The notes beneath the pieces are model-generated. The model was not told the origin of the DNA, searched no databases, and saw only the letters and a program-made list of their open reading frames with translations. A stretch of 64,000 bases of DNA from Longimicrobiaceae bacterium (lineage in GTDB: Bacteria > Gemmatimonadota > Gemmatimonadetes > Longimicrobiales > Longimicrobiaceae), in assembly GCA_036375715.1 (NCBI GenBank), contig DASVBS010000053.1:62001-126000 (forward strand). Reading direction: 5' to 3'. Of this stretch, positions 9,242-59,717 are shown in pieces; position 1 is the first letter of the stretch, and every line of letters starts with the position of its first letter. Both the position numbers and the translations under genes were made by a program.

Positions 9242-9242
<1 letters not shown>
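8088..9242 (-). CDS. Peptide/nickel ABC importer ATP-binding protein (OppF/DppF type)
   Basis: 384 residues. Walker [11 protein letters not shown]-loop [12 protein letters not shown], signature SGGQRQR, Walker B LIVCDEP and a switch His in [11 protein letters not shown] are all present, so it should be an active ATPase. The C-terminal oligopeptide-transporter extension carries the Cys-rich motif [11 protein letters not shown]. The N-terminal 55 residues before the ABC fold are longer than usual and of low complexity. Its ATG overlaps the stop of the partner ATPase gene by one base (TGATG). It is the last gene of the transporter cluster and should form a heterodimer with that partner on the cytoplasmic face of the permeases. 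Confidence 0.93.
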
Positions 9243-10372
<1,130 letters not shown>

Positions 10373-10381
10373 AGGAAGTGG

Positions 10382-10527
10382 TAATTACGAATTACGAATT
10401 ACGAATTACGGGGCGCCATCCTGCCAGCGGAGCAGTGCCTGGAGATTCGAACTCTCGCAGTCCGTGGTCCAAGATCCGTAGATCGCAGCTCATAATTCGG
10501 AGTTTCGTAATTCGTAATTCGTAATTC
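10382..10527. repeat. Heptad inverted-repeat element A (GAATTAC/GTAATTC arms)
   Basis: The left arm 10382-10409 is four 7-base units (one TAATTAC, three GAATTAC). The right arm 10507-10527 is three GTAATTC units, the exact complement, preceded by degenerate units from about 10492. The arms enclose about 85-95 bases of unrelated GC-rich sequence. A transcript from either strand could fold into a long A/U-rich stem. The right arm ends 3 bases from the stop codon of the upstream minus-strand permease gene. There is no open frame in the core and no target-site duplication that I can see. Confidence 0.85.
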
Positions 10528-10530
10528 CTG

Positions 10531-11748
10531 CTACGTCCTCAGCCTCGGATCCAGCGCATCCCTCAGCCCGTCCCCCAGCAGGTTGAAGGCAGTAACCGTC
10601 AGGACGATGGCGAGGCCAGGGAAGGTGGCGATCCACCAAGCGGTCACCAGGGCGTCGCGGCCGTCGGCGATCATGTTCCCCCAGCTCGGGGTGGGTGGCT
10701 GTACGCCCAGTCCCAGAAACGAGAGGGACGCCTCCACCAGGATCGTGTTGCCTATGCCCAGAGTGGTGTAGACGATGACGGGCGCGAGGGTATTGGGGAT
10801 GATGTGACGGAAGATGATCCGCCAGTCCGTCATCCCCAGGACCCGCGCAGCCTGGACGAACTCACGCTCGCGCAGCGACAACACCTCGCCGCGGACGATA
10901 CGCGCGACGCTCATCCACCCGGTCAGGCCGAGCACCAGCACCACCAGCCAGATCGACGGCTCGAACAGCGCGATCACCACGATCAGCAGCACCAGGCGCG
11001 GGAACGACAGCATCATGTCGGTGAAGCGCATGAGCACCGCGTCGGTCCACTTGCCGAAGTAGCCGGCGAGCGCGCCGATGAGCGTGCCGAAGGTGACGCT
11101 GATCGCCACCGCCACGAAGCCGATGGTCAGCGAGATCCGGGCGCCGTAGAGGACGCGGGAGAAGATGTCGCGTCCGAACTTGTCGGTCCCCATCGGATGC
11201 TCGAGCGAGGGCTCGAGATAGCGGGTGAGGACGATGTCACCCTGCGCGGTGGGATCGAAGGGGGCGATCAGCGGCGCGAGGAGCGTGATGGCGTAGAGGA
11301 CGACCATGGTGATCAGCCCCGCCATCGCCAGGTGGTTGCGACGGAAATGACGCGCGGCGATCGCCCACTGTGAGTCGCCCTGCAGCCGCGGAACGCGTCG
11401 CGATCGGACGATCAGATCGTATAGGCCCCATCCCCAGATCCCCACCAACAGTGCGACCAGCGTCACCACCGCCACGATCATGTCCACCGGTCGCCGCCGC
11501 GCCTCAATCAAGGCGGAGATCTCCTGCCCCGAGAGATAGGCGAGCCCCAGCAACGCCCCCCAACCGAGCAGCAGGCACATTCCCATCAGCCATTCCCCGC
11601 GCAGCAGGTGCCCGCTCCCGGGAAGCACGACCGACAGCCCGACCTGCCCCGGAGTCGCCGGCGCACGCCGACCCACGACCGGCGCCGCCGCCGCCGCCGA
11701 GAGCGGCTCGGGAGGGGAAGACTCGAGGGCTGGGGGAGGTTGGGGCAT
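10531..11748 (-). CDS. Peptide/nickel ABC importer permease (DppC type) with extra N-terminal membrane domain
   Basis: 405 residues, about 100 more than usual DppC/OppC. Residues about 140-405 are the standard permease: the OppC N-terminal segment FRRNHLAMAG, MGTDKFGRDIFSRVLYGARI and the EAA loop (EFVQAARVLGMTDWRIIFRH) that docks the ATPases. The extra residues 30-120 hold about three hydrophobic segments starting VVLPGSGHLLRGEWLMG, similar in look to small TM2/DUF5683-like membrane modules with a PGxG..Y/L.G motif. It forms the inner-membrane channel with the DppB-type permease. It is flanked on both sides by heptad inverted-repeat elements. Confidence 0.9.
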   Translation of the reverse strand: MPQPPPALESSPPEPLSAAAAAPVVGRRAPATPGQVGLSVVLPGSGHLLRGEWLMGMCLLLGWGALLGLAYLSGQEISALIEARRRPVDMIVAVVTLVALLVGIWGWGLYDLIVRSRRVPRLQGDSQWAIAARHFRRNHLAMAGLITMVVLYAITLLAPLIAPFDPTAQGDIVLTRYLEPSLEHPMGTDKFGRDIFSRVLYGARISLTIGFVAVAISVTFGTLIGALAGYFGKWTDAVLMRFTDMMLSFPRLVLLIVVIALFEPSIWLVVLVLGLTGWMSVARIVRGEVLSLREREFVQAARVLGMTDWRIIFRHIIPNTLAPVIVYTTLGIGNTILVEASLSFLGLGVQPPTPSWGNMIADGRDALVTAWWIATFPGLAIVLTVTAFNLLGDGLRDALDPRLRT

Positions 11749-11759
11749 ATGTCGAATAC

Positions 11760-11917
11760 GAATTACGAATTACAAATTACGGATTGCGGATTGCGAATTA
11801 CGGATAATCACTACGAACAACGTTTCGTTTTACCGCGGCTGCCGTAGGGATCGTGTCTTGAATTCCGGCGCTCGAGCCCGCGACAAGCCATAATTCGTAA
11901 TTCGCAATTGCGCATTC
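11760..11917. repeat. Heptad inverted-repeat element B (GAATTAC-type arms)
   Basis: The left arm 11760-11808 has about seven 7-base units (GAATTAC, GAATTAC, AAATTAC, GGATTGC, GGATTGC, GAATTAC, GGATAAT). The right arm 11890-11917 has four (ATAATTC, GTAATTC, GCAATTG, CGCATTC). Variant units on the left are partly matched by complementary variants on the right (GGATTGC versus GCAATTG), which suggests a conserved stem. The core is about 81 bases and unlike that of element A. The right arm ends 3 bases from the stop of the DppB-type permease gene. Confidence 0.8.
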
Positions 11918-11920
11918 GCC

Positions 11921-12904
11921 TCATTCGACGCGAATGCGCGGGTCCACCACGGCGTACAGCACGTCCGCCAGCAGATTCCCGATCACCACCATGGCGGCGG
12001 CGACGAAGCTGGTGGCCATCACCAGCGGGTAGTCGCGCTGGAAGATGGCGTCCACGATCAGGCGGCCCATGCCGGGCCAGGCGAAGATCGTCTCCACCAG
12101 CACCGAGCCGGAGAGCAGCACGGGAAGGTAGAGGCCCAGCAGCGTGATGATGGGAATGAGCGCGTTGCGCAGGGCGTGCTTGAAGATGACCGCGCGCTCG
12201 GAGAGACCCTTGGCACGCGCGGTACGGATGTAGTCCTGGTGAATGACCTCGAGCATCGAACCGCGCATGTAGCGCGCGACGCCGGCCGCGTTCCCGATGC
12301 CCAGCGCCGTCACTGGCAGGATCAGGTGCTCGATCCGATCCCACATCTTCTCGCCGAAGGACATGAACTCATAGCCGACGCTGGTCATGCCGGTGGCGGG
12401 GAACTGCAGCGGCCAGTCCCACTGGTTCGCCTTCCAACTGAAGAGCAGCACCAGCATCAGCGCGAACCAGAAGGAGGGCATCGAATAGAAGAAGAGTGCC
12501 AAAAAGGTCAGCACGTTGTCCGCCGCCGAGTACTGGCGCACCGCCTGGACGATGCCGACCAGCATCCCCAGCACGAAGATCACCACCAGCGACGCCAGCA
12601 TCAGTTGGACGGTGTTCCACAGTACTTCCGGCAGGATGTCGCCGATGGGGCGCATCTGCCCGAACGAGTAGCCGAAGTCGCCCCGCAGGAAGGCGGTCAG
12701 CCACTTGAAATACTGCACGTGAAGCGGCCGATCGAGCCCGAAGTTGCGCCGCATCTGCTCGATCACTTCCGGCGCTACATTCGGGTTGAAGTACCGGGCG
12801 GTAGGGTCGCCCGGGGCCAGATTGATGATGAAGAAGATGAGGGTGAGGATTCCCAGCAGGAGCGGAATCGCCCCGACCAGCCGACGCAGAAGGTAAGCGA
12901 TCAC
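11921..12904 (-). CDS. Peptide/nickel ABC importer permease (DppB type)
   Basis: 327 residues with six predicted membrane segments. The start MIAYLLRRLVGAIPLLLGIL and the periplasmic NLAPGDPTARYF are typical of DppB/OppB proteins. The EAA loop is in IRTARAKGLSERAVIFKHAL, followed by NALIPIITLLG. It should pair with the DppC-type permease to form the inner-membrane pore. It lies 153 bases downstream of the first substrate-binding protein gene, with a hairpin in the gap that could lower permease expression relative to the binding proteins. Confidence 0.93.
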   Translation of the reverse strand: MIAYLLRRLVGAIPLLLGILTLIFFIINLAPGDPTARYFNPNVAPEVIEQMRRNFGLDRPLHVQYFKWLTAFLRGDFGYSFGQMRPIGDILPEVLWNTVQLMLASLVVIFVLGMLVGIVQAVRQYSAADNVLTFLALFFYSMPSFWFALMLVLLFSWKANQWDWPLQFPATGMTSVGYEFMSFGEKMWDRIEHLILPVTALGIGNAAGVARYMRGSMLEVIHQDYIRTARAKGLSERAVIFKHALRNALIPIITLLGLYLPVLLSGSVLVETIFAWPGMGRLIVDAIFQRDYPLVMATSFVAAAMVVIGNLLADVLYAVVDPRIRVE

Positions 12905-12999
12905 GGATCGTGGCTCCGGTGGTCGCGATCGGGTGAGACAGGGGTCATGAGCACCGTCGCAGCAGGGCTGGGCGTTTCGGTCGAAAAATGCTCCCGCGG

Positions 13000-13027
13000 G
13001 GCCGCTCTCGCACGGCGGGGAGCGGCC
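13000..13027. terminator. Hairpin between binding-protein and permease genes, possible partial terminator
   Basis: GGCCGCTC at 13000-13007 pairs with GAGCGGCC at 13020-13027 around a 12-base loop. Read on the minus strand, a TTTTT run follows about 10 bases further on (plus-strand 12984-12988). The position after the binding-protein genes and ahead of the permease gene is where ABC operons often carry a leaky terminator or mRNA-stabilising stem. The T run is not directly adjacent, so this is tentative. Confidence 0.35.
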
Positions 13028-13057
13028 GCAAGGGACAGGCCAGGTTGAAGTTAGGTC

Positions 13058-14749
13058 TTACTCGGTCGTGTCCGTGGTGGCGGGCGCGAAGCCCCCGCGC
13101 TGCTGGTCCTCGGGAATCCACCACTCCCAGGCATTCTGGTAGGGACCGAAGGTGTTCACTTTCACCCCGCGAACCCGCTCGTTGATCCCGTTCACCTGGT
13201 CCATGTAGAAGAGCCAGGTGTAGGGCTGGTCCTCCACGAGCTTGGCGGCTGCCTGCTTCCAGTAGGGGATGGCCGCCTCCTCCGTCGGCTGCGCCAGTGC
13301 CAGCTCGAAGAGCCGCTGAGCCTCGGGGTTAGCATAGGAGACGATGTTGAACGGCGACTCCGGGCTCCACATCCCGGTGAGGTCAGCCGAGAGCGGCACG
13401 CCCCATCCGCCCAGCGCTGCCTCGTAATCCTCTCTCACCAGCGCGTCCATGAAGGTGTTGAACTCGAGGGAGCGGAGCTGAGCATCCACGCCGATCTGCC
13501 GCCACTGCTGCTGTACGATCTGTGAGACGTCGGCGCGACGCTGATTTCCCGAGTTGGTTACCAGCGTGAAACGGAACGGCTTACCGTCCTTCTCGACGAT
13601 GCCATCGCCGTTGTTGTCCACCCATCCCTTGCGGGACAGGATCTCCCGTGCCTGATCGGGATCGTACGGGAGCAGCGGCGTCATCTGCGGATCATAGAGA
13701 TCCGCGAAGATCGGAGGGTACGGCCCGCTGGCCCGGACCGCGAACTCCGTCATCTGCAGCGCCTCGAGGATCCCCTCGACGTTGATTGCCATTCCCAGCG
13801 CCCGTCGGATCTCCGGGTCGGCGAATGCCTCGAACGAGTTGGGGTTGTAGGCGATGTAGTCGTAGAATCGCTTCTCCTCCATTTCGAAGCGAATCTGCGG
13901 AGCCTGCTGGCGGAGCATAGGCACATGCTCGAAGCCCACCCCGTTCACCCAGTCAATGGTGCCGGTCTGCAGTTCCACGATCCGGGTCGTGGCGTCCGGA
14001 ATCACACGGAAAACGATCTGGTCGAGATACCCGGCCGGCTGGAAGTGCGGATTGCGCGAGAGAACCACCTGCTGCCCTCGGGACCAGCTGGCGATCTGAT
14101 AGGGTCCGCTGACCACCAGACCGCCGTTCTCCGGATTGCGAACGCTCGGGTGCGTCGCCAGCTCGGACGGCGGCACCGACTCGTACACATGCCGGGGGAC
14201 GATGCCGTGCGTCGAGTGGAACAGCATCTCCGGATAGCGGCGCCGGAAGCGGAAAAGCACGGTGGAATCGTCCTCGGCCACCACTTCCTCGATGTGCTCC
14301 GTATAATCCTGGCGCGGAGACGCGACCATGGGGTCGCGGAGCATGTGGTAGGTAAAGACGACATCGTGCGCGGTGATGGGTGTGCCGTCCGACCAGCGCA
14401 CATCCGACCGCATGTGGAAGCGGATGCCGGTTGAATCGGGTGCGACGTACTCGTAGGAGCGCGCCAGGGCCATGGGGCTCTCGTCCGCGGTGACGTACCG
14501 CACGCGACCGTCCGCCCACTCGCCTCGCAGCAGGCCCATGTACAACACATCCTGCAGGGTCGCGTCGAGGCCGCCCTGGGAAAGGGTGGCCAGCGGTTGA
14601 GCCATGTCGGAGTTCTGGGCGATGACGACCGTGCCGCCAGAGACCGGATCTCCATCCCCTCCGGAACCGCCACTCGCCGCATCCCTTCCACAACCGGCCC
14701 ATATCAACAAGACCGTGGCGGCCAACAATCCCCTGGCGGTGCGTGGCAT
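13058..14749 (-). CDS. Extracellular solute-binding protein family 5 (peptide/nickel), lipoprotein 1 of 3
   Basis: 563 residues. A signal with AGC as the probable lipidation site (the -3 residue is Trp, off consensus) precedes a family-5 fold: the domain I segment VRFH-like IRFHMRSDVRWSDGTPITAHD, then GPYQIASWSRGQQVVLSRNP and the characteristic DPDQAREILSRKGWVDNNGDG. Family members capture oligopeptides, nickel-chelates or sugars in the periplasm and deliver them to the DppBC permeases. ATG 14749 was chosen over 14806 because GGAGAGGAAG lies just ahead. It is nearest of the three to the permease genes. Confidence 0.9.
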   Translation of the reverse strand: MPRTARGLLAATVLLIWAGCGRDAASGGSGGDGDPVSGGTVVIAQNSDMAQPLATLSQGGLDATLQDVLYMGLLRGEWADGRVRYVTADESPMALARSYEYVAPDSTGIRFHMRSDVRWSDGTPITAHDVVFTYHMLRDPMVASPRQDYTEHIEEVVAEDDSTVLFRFRRRYPEMLFHSTHGIVPRHVYESVPPSELATHPSVRNPENGGLVVSGPYQIASWSRGQQVVLSRNPHFQPAGYLDQIVFRVIPDATTRIVELQTGTIDWVNGVGFEHVPMLRQQAPQIRFEMEEKRFYDYIAYNPNSFEAFADPEIRRALGMAINVEGILEALQMTEFAVRASGPYPPIFADLYDPQMTPLLPYDPDQAREILSRKGWVDNNGDGIVEKDGKPFRFTLVTNSGNQRRADVSQIVQQQWRQIGVDAQLRSLEFNTFMDALVREDYEAALGGWGVPLSADLTGMWSPESPFNIVSYANPEAQRLFELALAQPTEEAAIPYWKQAAAKLVEDQPYTWLFYMDQVNGINERVRGVKVNTFGPYQNAWEWWIPEDQQRGGFAPATTDTTE

Positions 14750-14769
14750 CGTCTTCCTCTCCGGTCCGC

Positions 14770-16434
14770 TCAGTTTCCGCGACGCATGCTTGGGAGGATC
14801 CACCATCGGTCGACCCCCACCCAGTCCCCTCGCGCGTCAGGATTCACGTTCCGCAGCCGCTCGTGGACCCCCTCGAGCCGCTCCTGGAAGTACAGGAAGG
14901 TAAACGGTTGATCGTGTGCGATCTTGCGCTGGTACTCTACCCAGAGCGCCCTCGCCTCTTCCCGATCCACTACGGTCGGGAGCTTTTCCAGCACGCGATC
15001 CGTTTCCGGGTCGCAGTAGCCGACCCACTGGAAAGGATCGTCACGCTTGTCGCAGTGGAACAGGTCTGTGTCGTCGATCCGGAACTCGGTCACCCACCCG
15101 ATGATCACCGCGTCGAAATCACGCAGGTCGGGGGTCTGGATCTGGTTCAGCAGGGTCCCCCACTCCACGACCCGCGACTCAGCCGCGATACCGACCCGCC
15201 GCAGATCCGACTGGACCTTCGCCGCGATGTCGGCTCGGAGCTGGTTGCCCTGATTGGTCTTGATCACGAAGCGGAAGGGTTGCCCGGCTTCGTTCTCGAT
15301 GATCCCATCCCCGTTGCGATCCTCCCAGCCGGCCTCCGCGAGGAGCTCGCGAGCCGCCTCGGGATCGTACTTCAGGTCACTCCCCGCTTCCGGATCGTAC
15401 TGCCAGAAGAAAGGCGGTACAGTCGAGTTCGCAAGCTGGCCGTAGCCGTAAACGATTCCGTCGATGATTCCCTGTCGATCGATGGCCATCGTCAGCGCGC
15501 GACGAACGCGCACGTCGTCGAACGGCGGACGGCGCTCGTTCCAGCCGATGACCAGGAAGGCGCGATCGGGGAAGGATACCAGGCGCGTATTCGGGTGGCT
15601 CTCGATTCGCGCGGCCTGGTCCGCGACGGGTGCGATATAATAGTCGATCGATCCCGTGAACAGCTCGGTCAGCAAGCTGGTGGGTTCGGGGATGAACCGA
15701 TACACCAATCGGTCGAGGTACGGGCGCCCCCCGAGCTCCTCAGGGAAGTCCTCGTTCGCCTCGAACACCCAGTTCTGCCCCAGCGTGCGCGAAACGAAGC
15801 GGAACGGACCATTCCCCACCGGCTCTTGCGTGGAGAACGGGTGATTGCGGAGCTCCGCTGGCGGCACTCCCTCCAGGATATGGCGTGGCACCGGGGCGAA
15901 GGAACGCCATGGATCCATGTAGTCCGCATGGGGCTCCATCTCCACCCGAAAAGTGAACGAGTCTACGGCCACCCCTTCCCCGTAATGCGTCCAGAAGGCG
16001 GTATTCGGATAGCCTGTCTCCGGGGTGGTCGCCATCGCGTAGCTGAACTCCAGGTCGTACGCAGTCGTCTTCACCCCATCGTGCCAGTAGACGTCGTCGC
16101 GTAGATGGAAGGTGATGGCCGAGGTGTCTTCGTTCAGCTCCCAGGAACGGGCGAGGTAGGGGACCGGCTCGAAGTTCTCATCATACCGGATCAGCGGCAT
16201 GAACAGGACGAACATGCGCAGCTGAGCCGAGTTGTGGTCGGTTGCGGTAAGCGGGTTGATGTCCGGAATGTCGTTGATGGTGGCGACCACGGCAGTCCCC
16301 CCATAGCGATCCTCCTCCGCCACGGCTGTTTCCAGCTCTGCGAAGGTATCGCCGCCGCCCCCTGGCCCATCTCCACACGCGGCGAGCGACGACAATACCA
16401 TCCCTACCGCCATCAGGTGTCGATAGCGCGCCAA
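14770..16434 (-). CDS. Extracellular solute-binding protein family 5, lipoprotein 2 of 3
   Basis: 554 residues from a TTG start at 16434, chosen because AGGAG stands about 8 bases upstream, whereas the in-frame ATGs at 16413 and 16518 have no ribosome site. The signal ends in the lipobox SLAAC. Family-5 landmarks are FHLRDDVYWHDGVKTTAYD, VGNGPFRFVSRTLGQNWVFE and DPEAARELLAEAGWEDRNGDG. Asp/Asn-rich EDRNGDGI and the similar segment of its neighbours resemble a calcium loop. It follows the third binding-protein gene and precedes the first by 20 bases. The sequence differs enough from its neighbours to suggest different ligands. Confidence 0.88.
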   Translation of the reverse strand: MARYRHLMAVGMVLSSLAACGDGPGGGGDTFAELETAVAEEDRYGGTAVVATINDIPDINPLTATDHNSAQLRMFVLFMPLIRYDENFEPVPYLARSWELNEDTSAITFHLRDDVYWHDGVKTTAYDLEFSYAMATTPETGYPNTAFWTHYGEGVAVDSFTFRVEMEPHADYMDPWRSFAPVPRHILEGVPPAELRNHPFSTQEPVGNGPFRFVSRTLGQNWVFEANEDFPEELGGRPYLDRLVYRFIPEPTSLLTELFTGSIDYYIAPVADQAARIESHPNTRLVSFPDRAFLVIGWNERRPPFDDVRVRRALTMAIDRQGIIDGIVYGYGQLANSTVPPFFWQYDPEAGSDLKYDPEAARELLAEAGWEDRNGDGIIENEAGQPFRFVIKTNQGNQLRADIAAKVQSDLRRVGIAAESRVVEWGTLLNQIQTPDLRDFDAVIIGWVTEFRIDDTDLFHCDKRDDPFQWVGYCDPETDRVLEKLPTVVDREEARALWVEYQRKIAHDQPFTFLYFQERLEGVHERLRNVNPDARGDWVGVDRWWILPSMRRGN

Positions 16435-16532
16435 TCCCGTACTCCTGAAAGGTTTAGTCGAAAGCGAAGTAGACGAAGAGCCCGCCGCGGAGTACCCGTA
16501 CGTACCGGACCCTGCCAATCAGAGTTCCATCC

Positions 16533-18161
16533 TTACTGTCGGGAGGCGGGGATCCACCAGCGATCGATGTTCACGATCTTGCTGCGGACATCGGTCTGAA
16601 TGTTCTGCACGCGTTCTCCCACACCGGCCAGGTCCTCACTCCAGAAGAGGAAGGTGATCGGCTGCAGCTCCTGGAGCCGACCGCTGAACTCGGCCCAGAT
16701 CGGTGCGGCCTGCGCCGGATCGGTGGTGCGCAGTCCCTGCTCGATGAGAGAGTCGACGCCGGGGTCGCAGAAGCCCGCGCGGTTGGGAGATCCCGGCTGA
16801 CGCGCCTGGGCACAGGTAAACAGGGGGGTGGGGTCGACCTTGAAGGTATCCAGCGTCCAGTTGGAGATGACCGCTTCGTACTGGCGGTTGCGGTGCTGCT
16901 GCAGCAGGGTCTGGAACTCGATGGTGCGGAGATCCACGGCAATGCCGAGCGCCCGCAGACCCTGCTGGATGACGGTCGCGAGGTCCTGGTGCATGCGGTT
17001 GGCGGAGTTGACCAGCAGGGTGAAGCGAAAGGCCCTGCCGTCGCGATCGAGCACCTCGTCCCCGTTGCTGTCGCTCCACCCGGCTTCGGCGAGCAGCTGT
17101 GCAGCCGCCTGGGGGTCGTAGGGGAGCGGTTCAAGCCCGGGATCCAGCGGGCTCCATGGCGGAATCATCCCGGAGGCCGGGGCGGCCAGCCCATGCATCA
17201 GAGCCCGGATGAGCTCCGGCCGGTTGATGGCCATGGTGAGGGCCCTCCGCACCCGAGCATCGGAGAACAGCGGATTCTGGTTGTTCCAGCCGATATAGGT
17301 GAACTCACGCGACGGGTAGTGGCGCAGCTCGACCCCCGGCTGGTTTTCGAGCTGGATCGCCTGATCAGGCAACAGGGTGTAGCCGATCATATCGGCCGAG
17401 CCGTTGAGCAGCTCGGTGATCATGGTGGTCGGCTCGGGGATCACGCGGAAGACCACCCGGTCCAGATAGGGCCGCCCGCCAAGGCCCGCAGGGAAAGAGT
17501 CGTTGGCCTCCAGCACGAGGCGCTGGTTGCGTTCCCAGGAGACGAAACGAAACGGGCCGCTGCCCACGGGGCGTTGGTTGAACGGCGCCTGGCTCATCTG
17601 CGCCGGGGCAACGTCCGCCAGCAGGTGCCGCGGGACGGGCGCCCACCAGAAACCGTCCAGCGCCTGGGCATGGGGTGCATCGAAGTCGAAGCGCACCGTG
17701 AACGAGTCGATCACGGTGGCGGACCTCACCTGGTTGAGGTAGGCGGATCCTAGCAGCGAGGCGGTCTCCGGGTTCTTCGCCAGGTCGAAGGTGAACTTCA
17801 CGTCCTCGGCCGTCACGAGCTCGCCATCGTGCCAGCGAACGTCATCCCGGAGGTGAAAGGTCACGCTGCTGTCCGTCAGCTCCCAGGACTCGGCTAGATA
17901 CGGCTGAGGGGACAGAGACTCGTCGTAGCGGATCAGCGGGGTGAAGAGCATCTGCTTGATCACCTCGTCGGTGAGGATGCTCGTGTTCACCACCGGGTTG
18001 AAGGCCTGAAAATCGGTGAGGGTGGCGATGATCGCGGTCCCGCCCGGCTGCGGCTCGCCCGTCACCTCCTCGCGCGGCGCGTCCGCCCCGTTGCAGGCGG
18101 CCAACAAGCCGAGCATCAGCGGGCACATCCGAGCAGGGAGGACACTAGAAATCGAGGGCAT
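16533..18161 (-). CDS. Extracellular solute-binding protein family 5, lipoprotein 3 of 3
   Basis: About 542 residues with a lipobox LLAAC near residue 23. Typical segments are FHLRDDVRWHDGELVTAED, VGSGPFRFVSWERNQRLVLE and DPQAAAQLLAEAGWSDSNGD. It looks more like protein 2 than protein 1, in line with tandem duplication. The start is uncertain: ATGs at 18161 and 18128 both give a signal peptide and neither has a clear ribosome site, while ATG 18230 would overlap the upstream lipoyl-transferase gene. The gene lies 50 bases after that transferase gene on the same strand. Confidence 0.87.
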   Translation of the reverse strand: MPSISSVLPARMCPLMLGLLAACNGADAPREEVTGEPQPGGTAIIATLTDFQAFNPVVNTSILTDEVIKQMLFTPLIRYDESLSPQPYLAESWELTDSSVTFHLRDDVRWHDGELVTAEDVKFTFDLAKNPETASLLGSAYLNQVRSATVIDSFTVRFDFDAPHAQALDGFWWAPVPRHLLADVAPAQMSQAPFNQRPVGSGPFRFVSWERNQRLVLEANDSFPAGLGGRPYLDRVVFRVIPEPTTMITELLNGSADMIGYTLLPDQAIQLENQPGVELRHYPSREFTYIGWNNQNPLFSDARVRRALTMAINRPELIRALMHGLAAPASGMIPPWSPLDPGLEPLPYDPQAAAQLLAEAGWSDSNGDEVLDRDGRAFRFTLLVNSANRMHQDLATVIQQGLRALGIAVDLRTIEFQTLLQQHRNRQYEAVISNWTLDTFKVDPTPLFTCAQARQPGSPNRAGFCDPGVDSLIEQGLRTTDPAQAAPIWAEFSGRLQELQPITFLFWSEDLAGVGERVQNIQTDVRSKIVNIDRWWIPASRQ

Positions 18162-18211
18162 CGGGACGTGTGTGGGGGCGTCAGTGGAGAGTCGCAGCGG
18201 GCTAAGGCCGC

Positions 18212-18985
18212 TCAGCTTCGCCAGATCCATTCCGGATCGCTGTGCTTTGCGACCAGCTCGCGGACTCGTGCCAGCTCCTTAGAGGACAGCTCCGAGGGCT
18301 GCAGATCGGCCCCCAGGACCTCCGTCCACCCGGCCAGGAGCGCGGCCGTCAGCGTCGTCCAATCGGGGAGCTCTGCCAGGTGCTCGGCCAGGGTTGCCGG
18401 AGGGAGTCCTGCCGGCTGGCCATTACGGGTGACGCTCGCCAGCAGTTGCTGGTCGTCCGCCAGCAGAAGGGAGCCGTGCTGGAGGAGCACCCCCGCACGG
18501 CGCCACTGCGCGCTCCCGACGAGCTTGCGATCCGCCACCACCACCTCCCCCTCTGCCGGCTCCTCGAAGCAGGGGTTAGTGGAGGGGACCGCCGCCCGCG
18601 CCACCGCTGAGGCGTGTATCCGCGCATCCAGGCCCAACCGCCGCAGTCCCGCGGCCAGCGCGCGGTTGATCGAGCGATAGCTCTCCCGCGGGCCGCCGAG
18701 GCTGTGATCGCGCACCACCACTGCGTAGGTGAGCTCGCGCGCGTGCACGACCGCCCGCCCACCCGTAGGCCGCCGCACCACGTCCAGCCCCAGCGCGGCT
18801 ATCCGCTCCCGATCGTACCATCCCACCGCCGGCTGATTCCGCCCGAATGAGAGGCAGCGCGGCTCCCACCGATAGAACCGCAGTACCGGCGTCCCCCCCT
18901 CGCGCACCGACTCCATCAGCGCCTCGTCCACGGCCATATTATACGACCCGGGCGCGGGGGGCGTGTCGAGGAAGCGAAGCTTCAA
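18212..18985 (-). CDS. Lipoate-protein ligase A / LipM-type octanoyltransferase family protein
   Basis: 257 residues of the biotin/lipoyl ligase fold. It has the substrate-binding motif RRPTGGRAVVH (71-81) and the conserved lysine Lys154 in DRKLVGSAQ. Cys139 in NPCFEEP matches the position of the catalytic Cys of Bacillus LipM octanoyltransferase, which LplA ligases lack, so transfer of octanoate from acyl carrier protein to GcvH is the favoured role. Cytoplasmic. gcvH lies about 1 kb upstream on the same strand and gcvP a little further, which fits lipoylation of the glycine cleavage H protein. True ligase activity on free lipoate cannot be excluded. Confidence 0.82.
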   Translation of the reverse strand: MKLRFLDTPPAPGSYNMAVDEALMESVREGGTPVLRFYRWEPRCLSFGRNQPAVGWYDRERIAALGLDVVRRPTGGRAVVHARELTYAVVVRDHSLGGPRESYRSINRALAAGLRRLGLDARIHASAVARAAVPSTNPCFEEPAEGEVVVADRKLVGSAQWRRAGVLLQHGSLLLADDQQLLASVTRNGQPAGLPPATLAEHLAELPDWTTLTAALLAGWTEVLGADLQPSELSSKELARVRELVAKHSDPEWIWRS

Positions 18986-19015
18986 TTCTTGATGTAATTT
19001 TGAATTTTGGAGGTT

Positions 19016-19191
19016 GAATTACGAATTACGAATTACGAATTACGAATTACTTGCCCGGCACAGTCATCCTGACCGAAGGGAAGATACCTCGGAAACCCAT
19101 GCCCTGCGGGATTCCTCGCTTCGCTGGGGAAGGGGCTTTGGCTCCCGCGATGACCGCAAGCTCGTAATTCGTAATTCGTAATTTGTAATTC
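19016..19191. repeat. Heptad inverted-repeat element C (perfect GAATTAC x5 arm)
   Basis: The left arm 19016-19050 is five perfect tandem GAATTAC units. The right arm 19164-19191 is GTAATTC, GTAATTC, GTAATTT, GTAATTC. The 113-base core holds CAGTCATCCTGACCGAAGGG, which resembles a GTCATCCTGAGCGAA-type intergenic repeat I recall from other GC-rich genomes. The final GTAATTC runs into the stop codon of the UPF0173 gene (TGA on minus at 19190-19192). The cleanest example of the element in this window. Confidence 0.9.
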
Positions 19192-19879
19192 AAACTTCGT
19201 AACTGTCCCCCGGCTTCAAGACGACGACCTCCGCCCTCTCGCCCACCAACCTGCGGAACTCTTCCGGGTCCTGCGCGATCAGGTCCCAGGTATTGTAGTG
19301 CACGGGAATGACCACGCGCGGCTGGATGAATTCGACGGCCCGGGCCGCGTCGGCGGGGTCCATGGTGTAGTTGTCGCCGATCGGGAGCAGAGCCACGTCG
19401 ACGGAGCCGGAGAGCAGCTCCATATCCTTGATGAGGGCGGTGTCTCCCGAGTAATAGACCCGTTTCCCGCTGTTCAGCTCGAGCAGGAAGCCGCAGCAGT
19501 CGGTGGTGAAGGCGCCGGTATCGTCCCCCGCGATGCTACCGGTATGCAGTGCCGGCGTCAGCTTCACCCGCCCGAAGGGGAACCGATGGCCTCCGCCGAT
19601 GTTCATCCCGTGGACCTTCTCCACGCCCTGATTCGAGCAGAAGGTCACCAGCTCGAAAGTGGAGACGACCGTGGCGCCGGTGCGCTTCGCCAGCGGGATG
19701 CAGTCGATGAAGTGGTCGAAGTGTCCGTGGGAGACGAGGATGTAGTCGAGCCGATCGATGTCGTCCGGCCGGATGTCGGCCGCTGGATTGTCCGTCAGGA
19801 ACGGATCGAAGAGAATGCGCGTCCCCTCGTCCGTCTCCAGCGAGATGCACGCGTGTCCGTGCCAGGTGAGGGTGGCCAT
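19190..19879 (-). CDS. UPF0173 metal-dependent hydrolase (metallo-beta-lactamase fold)
   Basis: 229 residues, the usual length for UPF0173. It starts ATLTWHGHACISLET and carries the metal-binding motif SHGHFDH, then LTPALHTGS, YYSGDTALI and a final His in VIPVHYNTW, enough ligands for a dinuclear zinc site. The family is cytoplasmic and its substrate is unknown. It is flanked by two heptad inverted-repeat elements, one on each side, and lies between gcvH and the lipoyl transferase gene on the same strand, although a role in lipoyl metabolism is only a guess. Confidence 0.9.
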   Translation of the reverse strand: MATLTWHGHACISLETDEGTRILFDPFLTDNPAADIRPDDIDRLDYILVSHGHFDHFIDCIPLAKRTGATVVSTFELVTFCSNQGVEKVHGMNIGGGHRFPFGRVKLTPALHTGSIAGDDTGAFTTDCCGFLLELNSGKRVYYSGDTALIKDMELLSGSVDVALLPIGDNYTMDPADAARAVEFIQPRVVIPVHYNTWDLIAQDPEEFRRLVGERAEVVVLKPGDSYEV

Positions 19880-19923
19880 CTTCGGAATACGCTGAAGGTT
19901 AAAAGGATCGGGACGTTAGAAGG

Positions 19924-20014
19924 GAAGCTAGAATTCAGAAGCTGGAAGCTAGAAGGAATCTCGATACTGCACCAGCGAATTCTGGCTTCCAGCTTCTCGC
20001 TTCTAGCTTCTCTA
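19924..20014. repeat. Heptad inverted-repeat element D (GAAGCTA/TTCTAGC arms)
   Basis: It has the same architecture as elements A-C with a different unit. The left arm 19924-19958 reads GAAGCTA, GAATTCA, GAAGCTG, GAAGCTA, GAAGGAA. The right arm 19980-20014 reads TTCTGGC, TTCCAGC, TTCTCGC, TTCTAGC, TTCTCTA. The core is only about 21 bases. The right arm overlaps the gcvH stop codon at 20012-20014. Seven-base periodicity in both arms is exact over 35 bases each. Confidence 0.85.
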
Positions 20015-20398
20015 ACTGATCTGCTTCTCATACGCCTCCGCGTCCAGCAGCCCGGCGAGCTCGGACTCGTCTTCCACGCGCAGGCGAATCATCCAGCCGT
20101 TGCCGTAGGGATCGGTGTTCACCAGGGCGGGGTCGGCGTCCAGCGCCTCGTTCACTTCGATCACCTCCCCGGAGACGGGGCAGAAGAGCTCCGACACCGC
20201 CTTCACAGCTTCGATCGTCCCGAACACCTCCATCCGCCCGAAGCGGGCCCCCACCTTGGGGAGCTCGACGAAGACCACGTCCCCCAGCTGGTCCTGCGCA
20301 TAGTCGGTGATGCCGACCGCCACCACCCCCTCCTCCTCCGTCCGGCGCACGTACTCGTGCTCGGGCGTATACAGCAGCTCCTGCGGGACCTTCGACAT
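20012..20398 (-). CDS. gcvH: Glycine cleavage system H protein
   Basis: 128 residues, normal length. It starts VPQELLYTPEHEYVRR and has the lipoylation site Lys66 in TIEAVKAVSELFCPVSGEV, then the C-terminal GNGWMIRLRV segment. The lipoyl arm of Lys66 carries the aminomethyl group between the P protein (gcvP, 1.4 kb away on the other strand), the T protein and the L protein; gcvT and a lipoamide dehydrogenase gene are not in the window. Cytoplasmic. The gcvH and gcvP genes are transcribed divergently with a broken serpin gene between them. Confidence 0.96.
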   Translation of the reverse strand: MSKVPQELLYTPEHEYVRRTEEEGVVAVGITDYAQDQLGDVVFVELPKVGARFGRMEVFGTIEAVKAVSELFCPVSGEVIEVNEALDADPALVNTDPYGNGWMIRLRVEDESELAGLLDAEAYEKQIS

Positions 20399-59501: not shown

Positions 59502-59717
59502 AACCGCGGAGGGCACAGAGGAAAACACGGAGGTCACAGAGGAAGGTCGGAGAATCGATTTGTTTGGCTAGAGATCCCGACCGGTCAGAGAAGACCGCAC
59601 CTTACCACAGTCGGGAAACGTAAGCTCAGGTGAGAAGTAAGATTCTGGCTGGGGCTTCCTCTGTGCCTCTCTGTTTTCTCTGTGGTTGCTCTGTGGTTGC
59701 TTGGAACTCTGCGGTTG
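59502..59717. repeat. Long imperfect inverted repeat of CACAGAGG type
   Basis: The left arm 59502-59543 (aaccgcggagggcacagagg, then aaaacacggaggtcacagagg) is the imperfect complement of 59657-59717, which holds repeated CTCTGTGG units at about 11-base spacing. The core is about 110 bases and GC-poorer than the genome. It fills most of the 385-base gap between the divergent imuA and exonuclease genes. CTCTGTGG-rich intergenic repeats of this type occur in various unrelated genomes; the origin here is unknown. Confidence 0.75.

Follow-up and report, generated by a model that had tools for sequence, protein, structure and literature searches.

Inverted seven-base arrays behind stop codons in a Longimicrobiaceae genome: sites that appear to be kept while their words change

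A 64,000-nt stretch of a Longimicrobiaceae bacterium genome (positions 62001-126000 of contig C53; hereafter the window, in whose coordinates positions are given) contains four intergenic elements, A at 10382-10527, B at 11760-11917, C at 19016-19191 and D at 19924-20014, in which tandem copies of a seven-base word on the left face complementary copies on the right across a core. This raises the question as to what is kept at such sites (the word, the whole element, or an arrangement at a particular place) and how the words spread. A first-pass annotation of the window had proposed a recent repeat-generating or spreading process with swappable words and a hairpin form that it did not recognise; we found all four elements where it had placed them, and the first part of its interpretation stands whereas the second does not. 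Location just behind stop codons, fixed polarity, an additional eight-base class and the retention of sites with a change of word go beyond that annotation. Tentatively, at a probability of about 0.42, we read the elements as 3'-end hairpins behind stop codons in which place and pairing matter while spelling turns over, and which would act at the RNA level like repetitive extragenic palindromic (REP) sequences.

The four elements are members of a genome-wide class. Statistics for the genome of the window (G000; 4.37 Mb in 87 contigs, 95.2% complete) come from an 845-kb sample, together with pattern and DNA searches of the whole genome. Two GAATTAC units with at most two mismatches occur 17 times in the window (0.02 expected from shuffles), and three units with at most three mismatches occur 590 times in the genome (279 forward and 311 reverse), against none for the reversed control. 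The sample holds 98 period-7 tracts vs. two in a Markov-3 control, so the periodic excess on which the first-pass annotation had made its proposal depend is indeed genome-wide and the four copies are not alone. Period-8 tracts are likewise in excess (19 vs. one), showing that an eight-base class exists. The use of a different word in the same seven-base register, noted earlier for element D, turns out to extend to about five families in this genome: GAATTAC; GAATTTT; GAAGCTA/GAAGCCA/GGAGCCA; GTTATCC/GGATAAC; and the 8-mer GGTGACAA/GGAGACAA.

Each word has a fixed polarity. Neighbouring tracts form 43 inverted and four direct pairs in G000, 21 and none in a genome of a related genus (G001), and 35 and two in Chitinophaga solisilvae (G061); the sole GAATTAC pair of opposite polarity in G000 stems from two adjacent elements. 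Cores, which range from about 20 to 250 bases in G000, behave quite differently from the arms: a concatenate of seven of them, four being those of the window elements, matched only itself across the whole genome, and likeness between cores in the sample is confined to other repeat words or to a dispersed hairpin of the CATCCTGAGCGAAGG type. Since cores are unique and the two arms of an element are no better matched than arms of different elements, what is shared in G000 is the word and not the element. Words are also nested inside the arms of other words. Inverted repeats of the CACAGAGG/CGCAGAGG type lie within GAATTAC arms, and once outside them (L149:18334-18541, L160:299-463, L152 about 1190-1245, L179:11168-11319). 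Ring-like growth, with younger units outermost, was considered and dropped: units clearly fade inward in G001 and C. solisilvae, but the GAATTAC arms of G000 show no clear fading of this kind.

The elements favour one particular place, the 3' side of genes, as judged with our own simple codon-usage gene caller. Among G000 gaps over 30 nt, divergent gaps are shunned (three of 62 elements vs. 75 of 461 gaps) and convergent ones enriched (19 of 62 vs. 73 of 461). Elements between co-directional genes have the stop codon at a median of 8.5 nt and the next start at 59 nt; the stop codon is the closer of the two for 25 of 30 elements, and 22 of the 30 lie within 20 nt of it, where uniform placement predicts 10.9 (p < 1e-4). 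Even where the promoter side offers 100-758 nt of free sequence, all 13 elements keep to within 30 nt of the stop (counted by hand), and insertion tolerance alone is therefore an insufficient explanation. Because some cores hold an evident terminator (L159:674, L178:14058, others in G001), the core at first seemed a candidate for the native terminator. Taken together, however, cores show no more structure than control 3' regions do (z of folding -0.34 vs. -0.81), and a terminator-like site, that is, a GC-rich hairpin followed by a T run, is present in 10% of cores vs. 6% of controls; we thus rejected both this idea and the view of the elements as intrinsic terminators.

A comparison across genera separates site from word. 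GAATTAC arrays are absent from 60 relatives from the family and order, and those sampled share the design with other words; one genus uses GTGCGTGA, CGCGGAGA/TCTCCGCG and others, and G001 uses GTCGTCA, GCTATCA, GGGAACA, GTTGCCA, AATGATG and AGTGCGAA. We set side by side adjacent gene pairs that are orthologous between G000 and G001, their proteins mostly 55-90% identical, and that are separated by 40 nt or more in one genome or the other. Of 31 such gaps, drawn from three 20-kb regions picked as element-rich, a choice that affects the base rates, nine carry an element in both genomes, two only in G000, four only in G001 and 16 in neither (Fisher p = 0.0017). The word differs at all nine shared sites. 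All four window elements have counterparts, spelled GTTGCCA at A, CAGTTGC at B, CAGGGAA at C and GAATGAT (vs. GAAGCTA) at D. Another relative, G007, has long direct, non-inverted arrays of the 8-mer TTCGTACC with 12 and 15 units (L188:14453-14767).

GAATTAC itself recurs far from this family. Among the matches listed in a scan of genome contigs, arrays occur in Cyanobacteria, Bacteroidota, Acidobacteriota, Chloroflexota, Planctomycetota and others, and inverted pairs of the same polarity in Chitinophaga, Odoribacteraceae, Prevotellaceae and Acidobacteria; three-unit matches number 456 + 462 in C. solisilvae and 179 + 216 in a 2-Mb Prevotellaceae metagenome-assembled genome. The C. solisilvae elements, of which 24 whole hairpins lie in 394 kb, are near-perfect hairpins of 116-161 nt with stems of 48-68 pairs, excepting two (L240:9598-9818 and L243:1507-1688) in which a tandem duplicate of the left half precedes a complete hairpin, perhaps a relic of copying. 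Variant units pair in register in Chitinophaga elements, and across nine aligned C. solisilvae copies 12 of 52 stem pairs have changed on both sides with pairing retained, as compensated stems would. All 12 co-directional elements in C. solisilvae lie within 37 nt of a stop codon and 11 within 10 nt, elements in convergent gaps end -2 to +18 nt from both stops, and the element often supplies, with its first two bases, the end of a TAA stop. Four further copies of one 145-bp element share 93-97% identity with it. A single orthologous gap followed across the genus is empty in nine species, with flanking genes about 20 bp apart or less, and holds GAATTAC hairpins with differing cores in three, hairpins of other words in three and an unrelated long hairpin (TTTAGGGACCTGTTTATTTT ... 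AAAATAAACAGATCCCTAAA) in two (L222, L223). Hundreds of near-perfect arms of one word, other words at orthologous sites, and Chitinophaga hairpins that are dispersed and absent from the orthologous gaps of congeners together bear out a recent generating or spreading process.

Which machinery could be responsible? The Y1 transposase (Y1_Tnp, PF01797; RAYT) was not found in G000, in a search in which five of 14 control genomes were positive, nor in G001, which argues against a REPIN/RAYT system (REPINs being REP doublets forming hairpins). Reverse transcriptase (RVT_1, PF00078) is absent from G000 at its 95.2% completeness, which speaks against generators of that kind (retron, diversity-generating retroelement, group II intron, telomerase-like). 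A miniature inverted-repeat transposable element (MITE) with shared terminal repeats and internal sequence does not describe G000, where the seven cores are single-copy, and does describe C. solisilvae. Rfam gave no matches at gathering score in the window or in three C. solisilvae loci. Element A is without a match in phage records; viral contigs gave 30 GAATTAC matches, with none for one shuffled word and 26 for another, and plasmid matches were only arm-length and mostly cyanobacterial. Spread looks non-autonomous, because no Y1 transposase or reverse transcriptase was found in G000, and might proceed by way of DNA prone to form hairpins and of the host's replication or repair. In G000 a word reaches hundreds of sites without carrying a core.

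Under the reading that we favour, the arms would pair in the transcript and form a long stem downstream of the coding sequence, which, like a REP stem, could shield the upstream mRNA from 3' exonucleases, set a processing point inside operons and curb read-through at convergent ends; selection would retain structure and place but not spelling, so that new word families could supplant old ones at the same sites. Several observations weigh against it. Arms of the same GAATTAC element in G000 match each other no better (mean 0.857) than arms of different elements do (0.849), unlike the prediction of strict selection on each stem. For G000 this also fails to support, as a rule, the pairing of variant units between arms that the first-pass annotation had described in element B, whose minimum-energy fold puts the variant units outside the arm stem. 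G-U makes up only 2% of C. solisilvae stem pairs, and palindrome correction at the DNA level could thus mimic compensation there. Roughly half of the elements in co-directional gaps have the next start less than 40 nt away and so probably lie within operons, in which termination would do harm. In several other family members oppB and oppC are just 1-3 bp apart with no element between them, and the element is hence dispensable there. Finally, besides the choice of element-rich regions, the two genera may tolerate an insertion in the same gaps to a like degree, which could raise the overlap between G000 and G001.

The main rival, possible if rather doubtful, holds that the elements are selfish, MITE-like hairpins, non-autonomous and mobilised by some enzyme directed to the 3' ends of genes or to hairpins already present, with successive word families colonising the same sites. 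It fits the Chitinophaga data well, given the five copies of the 145-bp element, the density of whole hairpins, the gap that is empty in nine species and the half-hairpin duplications, and the nesting of words in one another's arms also speaks for it. Yet no direct repeat that would mark a target-site duplication was seen in the flanks of about 23 C. solisilvae elements, inspected by eye without a near-identical pair of empty and filled strains; G000 lacks both enzymes searched for; and the seven cores tested there are single-copy, so that whole elements do not multiply in it. Nor does mobility alone account for the siting behind the stop codon of all elements that have over 100 nt to spare. 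This account and a 3'-end role in RNA may both hold, at different stages. It is unlikely, though less so than the remaining alternatives, that a dedicated undescribed system recognises gene 3' ends or hairpins and installs the current seven- or eight-base words on both sides in fixed polarity, overwriting older words, from this family to Bacteroidota and cyanobacteria.

We give little credence to templated arm writing, in which, at a hairpin or nick behind a gene, an enzyme would extend both 3' strands with copies of a 7-8-nt word specified by a guide. Such an activity would yield shared words, native cores and fixed polarity, and the unique cores of G000, the absolute polarity, the constant unit length with swappable words and the lack of any special likeness between arms of one element are all as it predicts, but RVT_1 is absent, C. 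solisilvae contains whole-hairpin copies, and one genome uses several words. Moreover, cores inside operons measure 50-135 bp at places where the genes of some relatives are 1-3 bp apart; a native origin therefore does not suffice for these cores. Neutral slippage, whereby hairpin-prone intergenic DNA gains 7-8-nt tandem duplications and 3'-end siting reflects tolerated insertion only, is given just as little weight and is already strongly disfavoured: period 7 is the commonest class of long simple sequence repeat in most surveyed genomes, with polymerase slippage proposed as the cause (Mrazek 2007, as cited in PMC4679880), but slippage is local and accounts neither for one word recurring at hundreds of unlinked places nor for absolute polarity and stop-codon proximity in gaps with hundreds of bases to spare. 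Least probable is a role in DNA, in which a nucleoid or domain-boundary protein favouring gene 3' ends would bind the arms as arrays of sites. Regular tandem units with polarity fixed toward the core would suit it; the use of several unrelated words in one genome would not, nor would the complete change of word between genera at the same sites, since the binding protein would have to change specificity too.

The layout of the window elements and their neighbours is given in Table 1. Elements A and B lie in gaps of an opp/dpp-type operon that includes three successive family-5 solute-binding protein genes (13058-18230). Element D has the most stable fold relative to shuffles (-45.5 kcal/mol, z = -7.0), followed by A (z = -5.1) and, more weakly, B (z = -2.6). 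For C the piece folded was 19016-19161 (z = -1.0), a value uninformative on the arm stem because the right arm lies outside that piece. A second dispersed hairpin motif, of the CATCCTGAGCGAAGCGAAGGATC ... CTTCGCTTCGCTCAGGATG type, is found within several cores (19051-19161 in element C, L163:2761-2882, L165:14153-14310 and L176:862-1000). At 59667-59701, just ahead of the start of an open reading frame, the window also contains a period-11 array of CTCTGTGGTTG with 3.2 units, resembling a partnerless arm of a CACAGAGG-type repeat.

Table 1. Parts of elements A-D and adjacent genes, in window coordinates.
Feature	Position	Strand	Remark
Element A left arm, (AATTACG)x4	10383..10410	+	
Element A core	10411..10503	.	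single copy in genome; imperfect heptamer units at its end
Element A right arm, TTCGTAA x3.4	10504..10527	-	oppC stop codon 3 nt from arm end
Element B left arm, variant units GAATTAC/GGATTGC	11757..11799	+	
Element B core	11800..11890	.	single copy in genome
Element B right arm, TAATTCG x2.7	11891..11909	-	degenerate units on to about 11917; oppB stop codon 11 nt off
Element C left arm, (GAATTAC)x5	19016..19050	+	
Element C core	19051..19161	.	single-copy as a whole; holds dispersed hairpin-like motif CATCCTGACCGAAGGG...CTTCGCTGGGG
Element C right arm, (TCGTAAT)x4	19162..19190	-	in contact with stop codon of gene 19190-19879
Element D left arm, units GAAGCTA/GAAGCTG	19924..19955	+	
Element D core, short	19956..19979	.	
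Element D right arm, units TTCTAGC/TTCCAGC	19980..20012	-	adjoins stop codon of glycine cleavage H-protein gene
oppD-like oligopeptide ABC transporter ATPase	9242..10372	-	5' side of gap A
oppC-like permease	10531..11748	-	stop codon beside element A
oppB-like permease	11921..12904	-	stop codon beside element B
Metallo-beta-lactamase-fold hydrolase	19190..19879	-	sits between elements C and D
Glycine cleavage H protein	20012..20398	-	stop codon at element D

The class belongs to a kind already known from work on heptamer repeats in Xanthomonas and Beggiatoaceae. The Xanthomonas GGGAATC repeats form 70-75 convergent inverted pairs per genome, mostly of about four units and intergenic (Rehm et al. 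2015, PMC4692102), at a mean of 28 nt from the upstream gene vs. 160 nt from the downstream one and avoiding divergent gaps (PMC4692102); inverted, 3'-biased heptamer pairs had thus been described, and the form is not the unrecognised one that the first-pass annotation took it for. The elements studied here share with them the convergent inverted arrays of one word on the 3'-end side of the upstream gene. They differ in that Xanthomonas has one G-rich word, considered for G-quadruplex formation, where we find several non-quadruplex words per genome plus an eight-base class; a G-tract word GGGANTN able to form a quadruplex is not among the G000 words GAATTAC, GAAGCTA, GTTATCC and GGTGACAA. Our elements are also nearly always paired, and whereas Xanthomonas sites are mostly conserved between two species with the same word in both (PMC4692102), here orthologous sites keep the element and change the word. 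Literature searches with the word sequences returned no description of them, and the literature examined describes neither several words per genome with an eight-base class nor, above all, word exchange at conserved sites.

Seven-base tandem intergenic arrays in statistical excess are also the mark of long simple sequence repeats and of the short tandemly repeated repetitive (STRR) sequences of cyanobacteria. STRR and the TAACTGA repeats of Beggiatoaceae are, as here, dispersed intergenic heptamer arrays with words that differ by genome, in Bacteroidetes too, but they are mainly single direct arrays, where we see inverted arm pairs behind stop codons; TAACTGA repeats precede start codons, in 169 direct sets and one indirect (MacGregor 2015, PMC4679880), and the same paper reviews long heptamer repeats, whose mechanism of horizontal spreading was then unknown. 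REPINs and REP sequences with RAYT resemble our elements in being numerous, short and dispersed, in pairing inverted units into a hairpin about a variable middle and in often following genes, but are built of REP units of 20-25 bp and not of tandem 7/8-mer arms in genomes without a RAYT-type transposase. The MITE-like Correia/NEMIS and enterobacterial repetitive intergenic consensus (ERIC) elements, hairpins of 100-160 bp in intergenic transcribed positions, are best matched by the C. solisilvae elements; unlike Correia/NEMIS and ERIC, G000 copies have period-7 arms and no conserved core or terminal sequence. Intrinsic (rho-independent) terminators, too, are inverted repeats soon after the stop, often between convergent genes, and the frequency of perfect inverted repeats as a whole is highest just past bacterial stop codons (PMC13155455), but the long interrupted stem around a 20-250-nt core, the lack of a consistent U tract and the frequent location inside operons set our elements apart. 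Heptamer repeats have been reported piecemeal for decades, as STRR, TAACTGA and GGGAATC, without a common role; our data suggest that they share one architecture of inverted arms of 7/8-base words behind stop codons, in which sites persist and words are exchanged. Structure and place would then be separate from sequence, and the class could be found in any genome without knowing its word.

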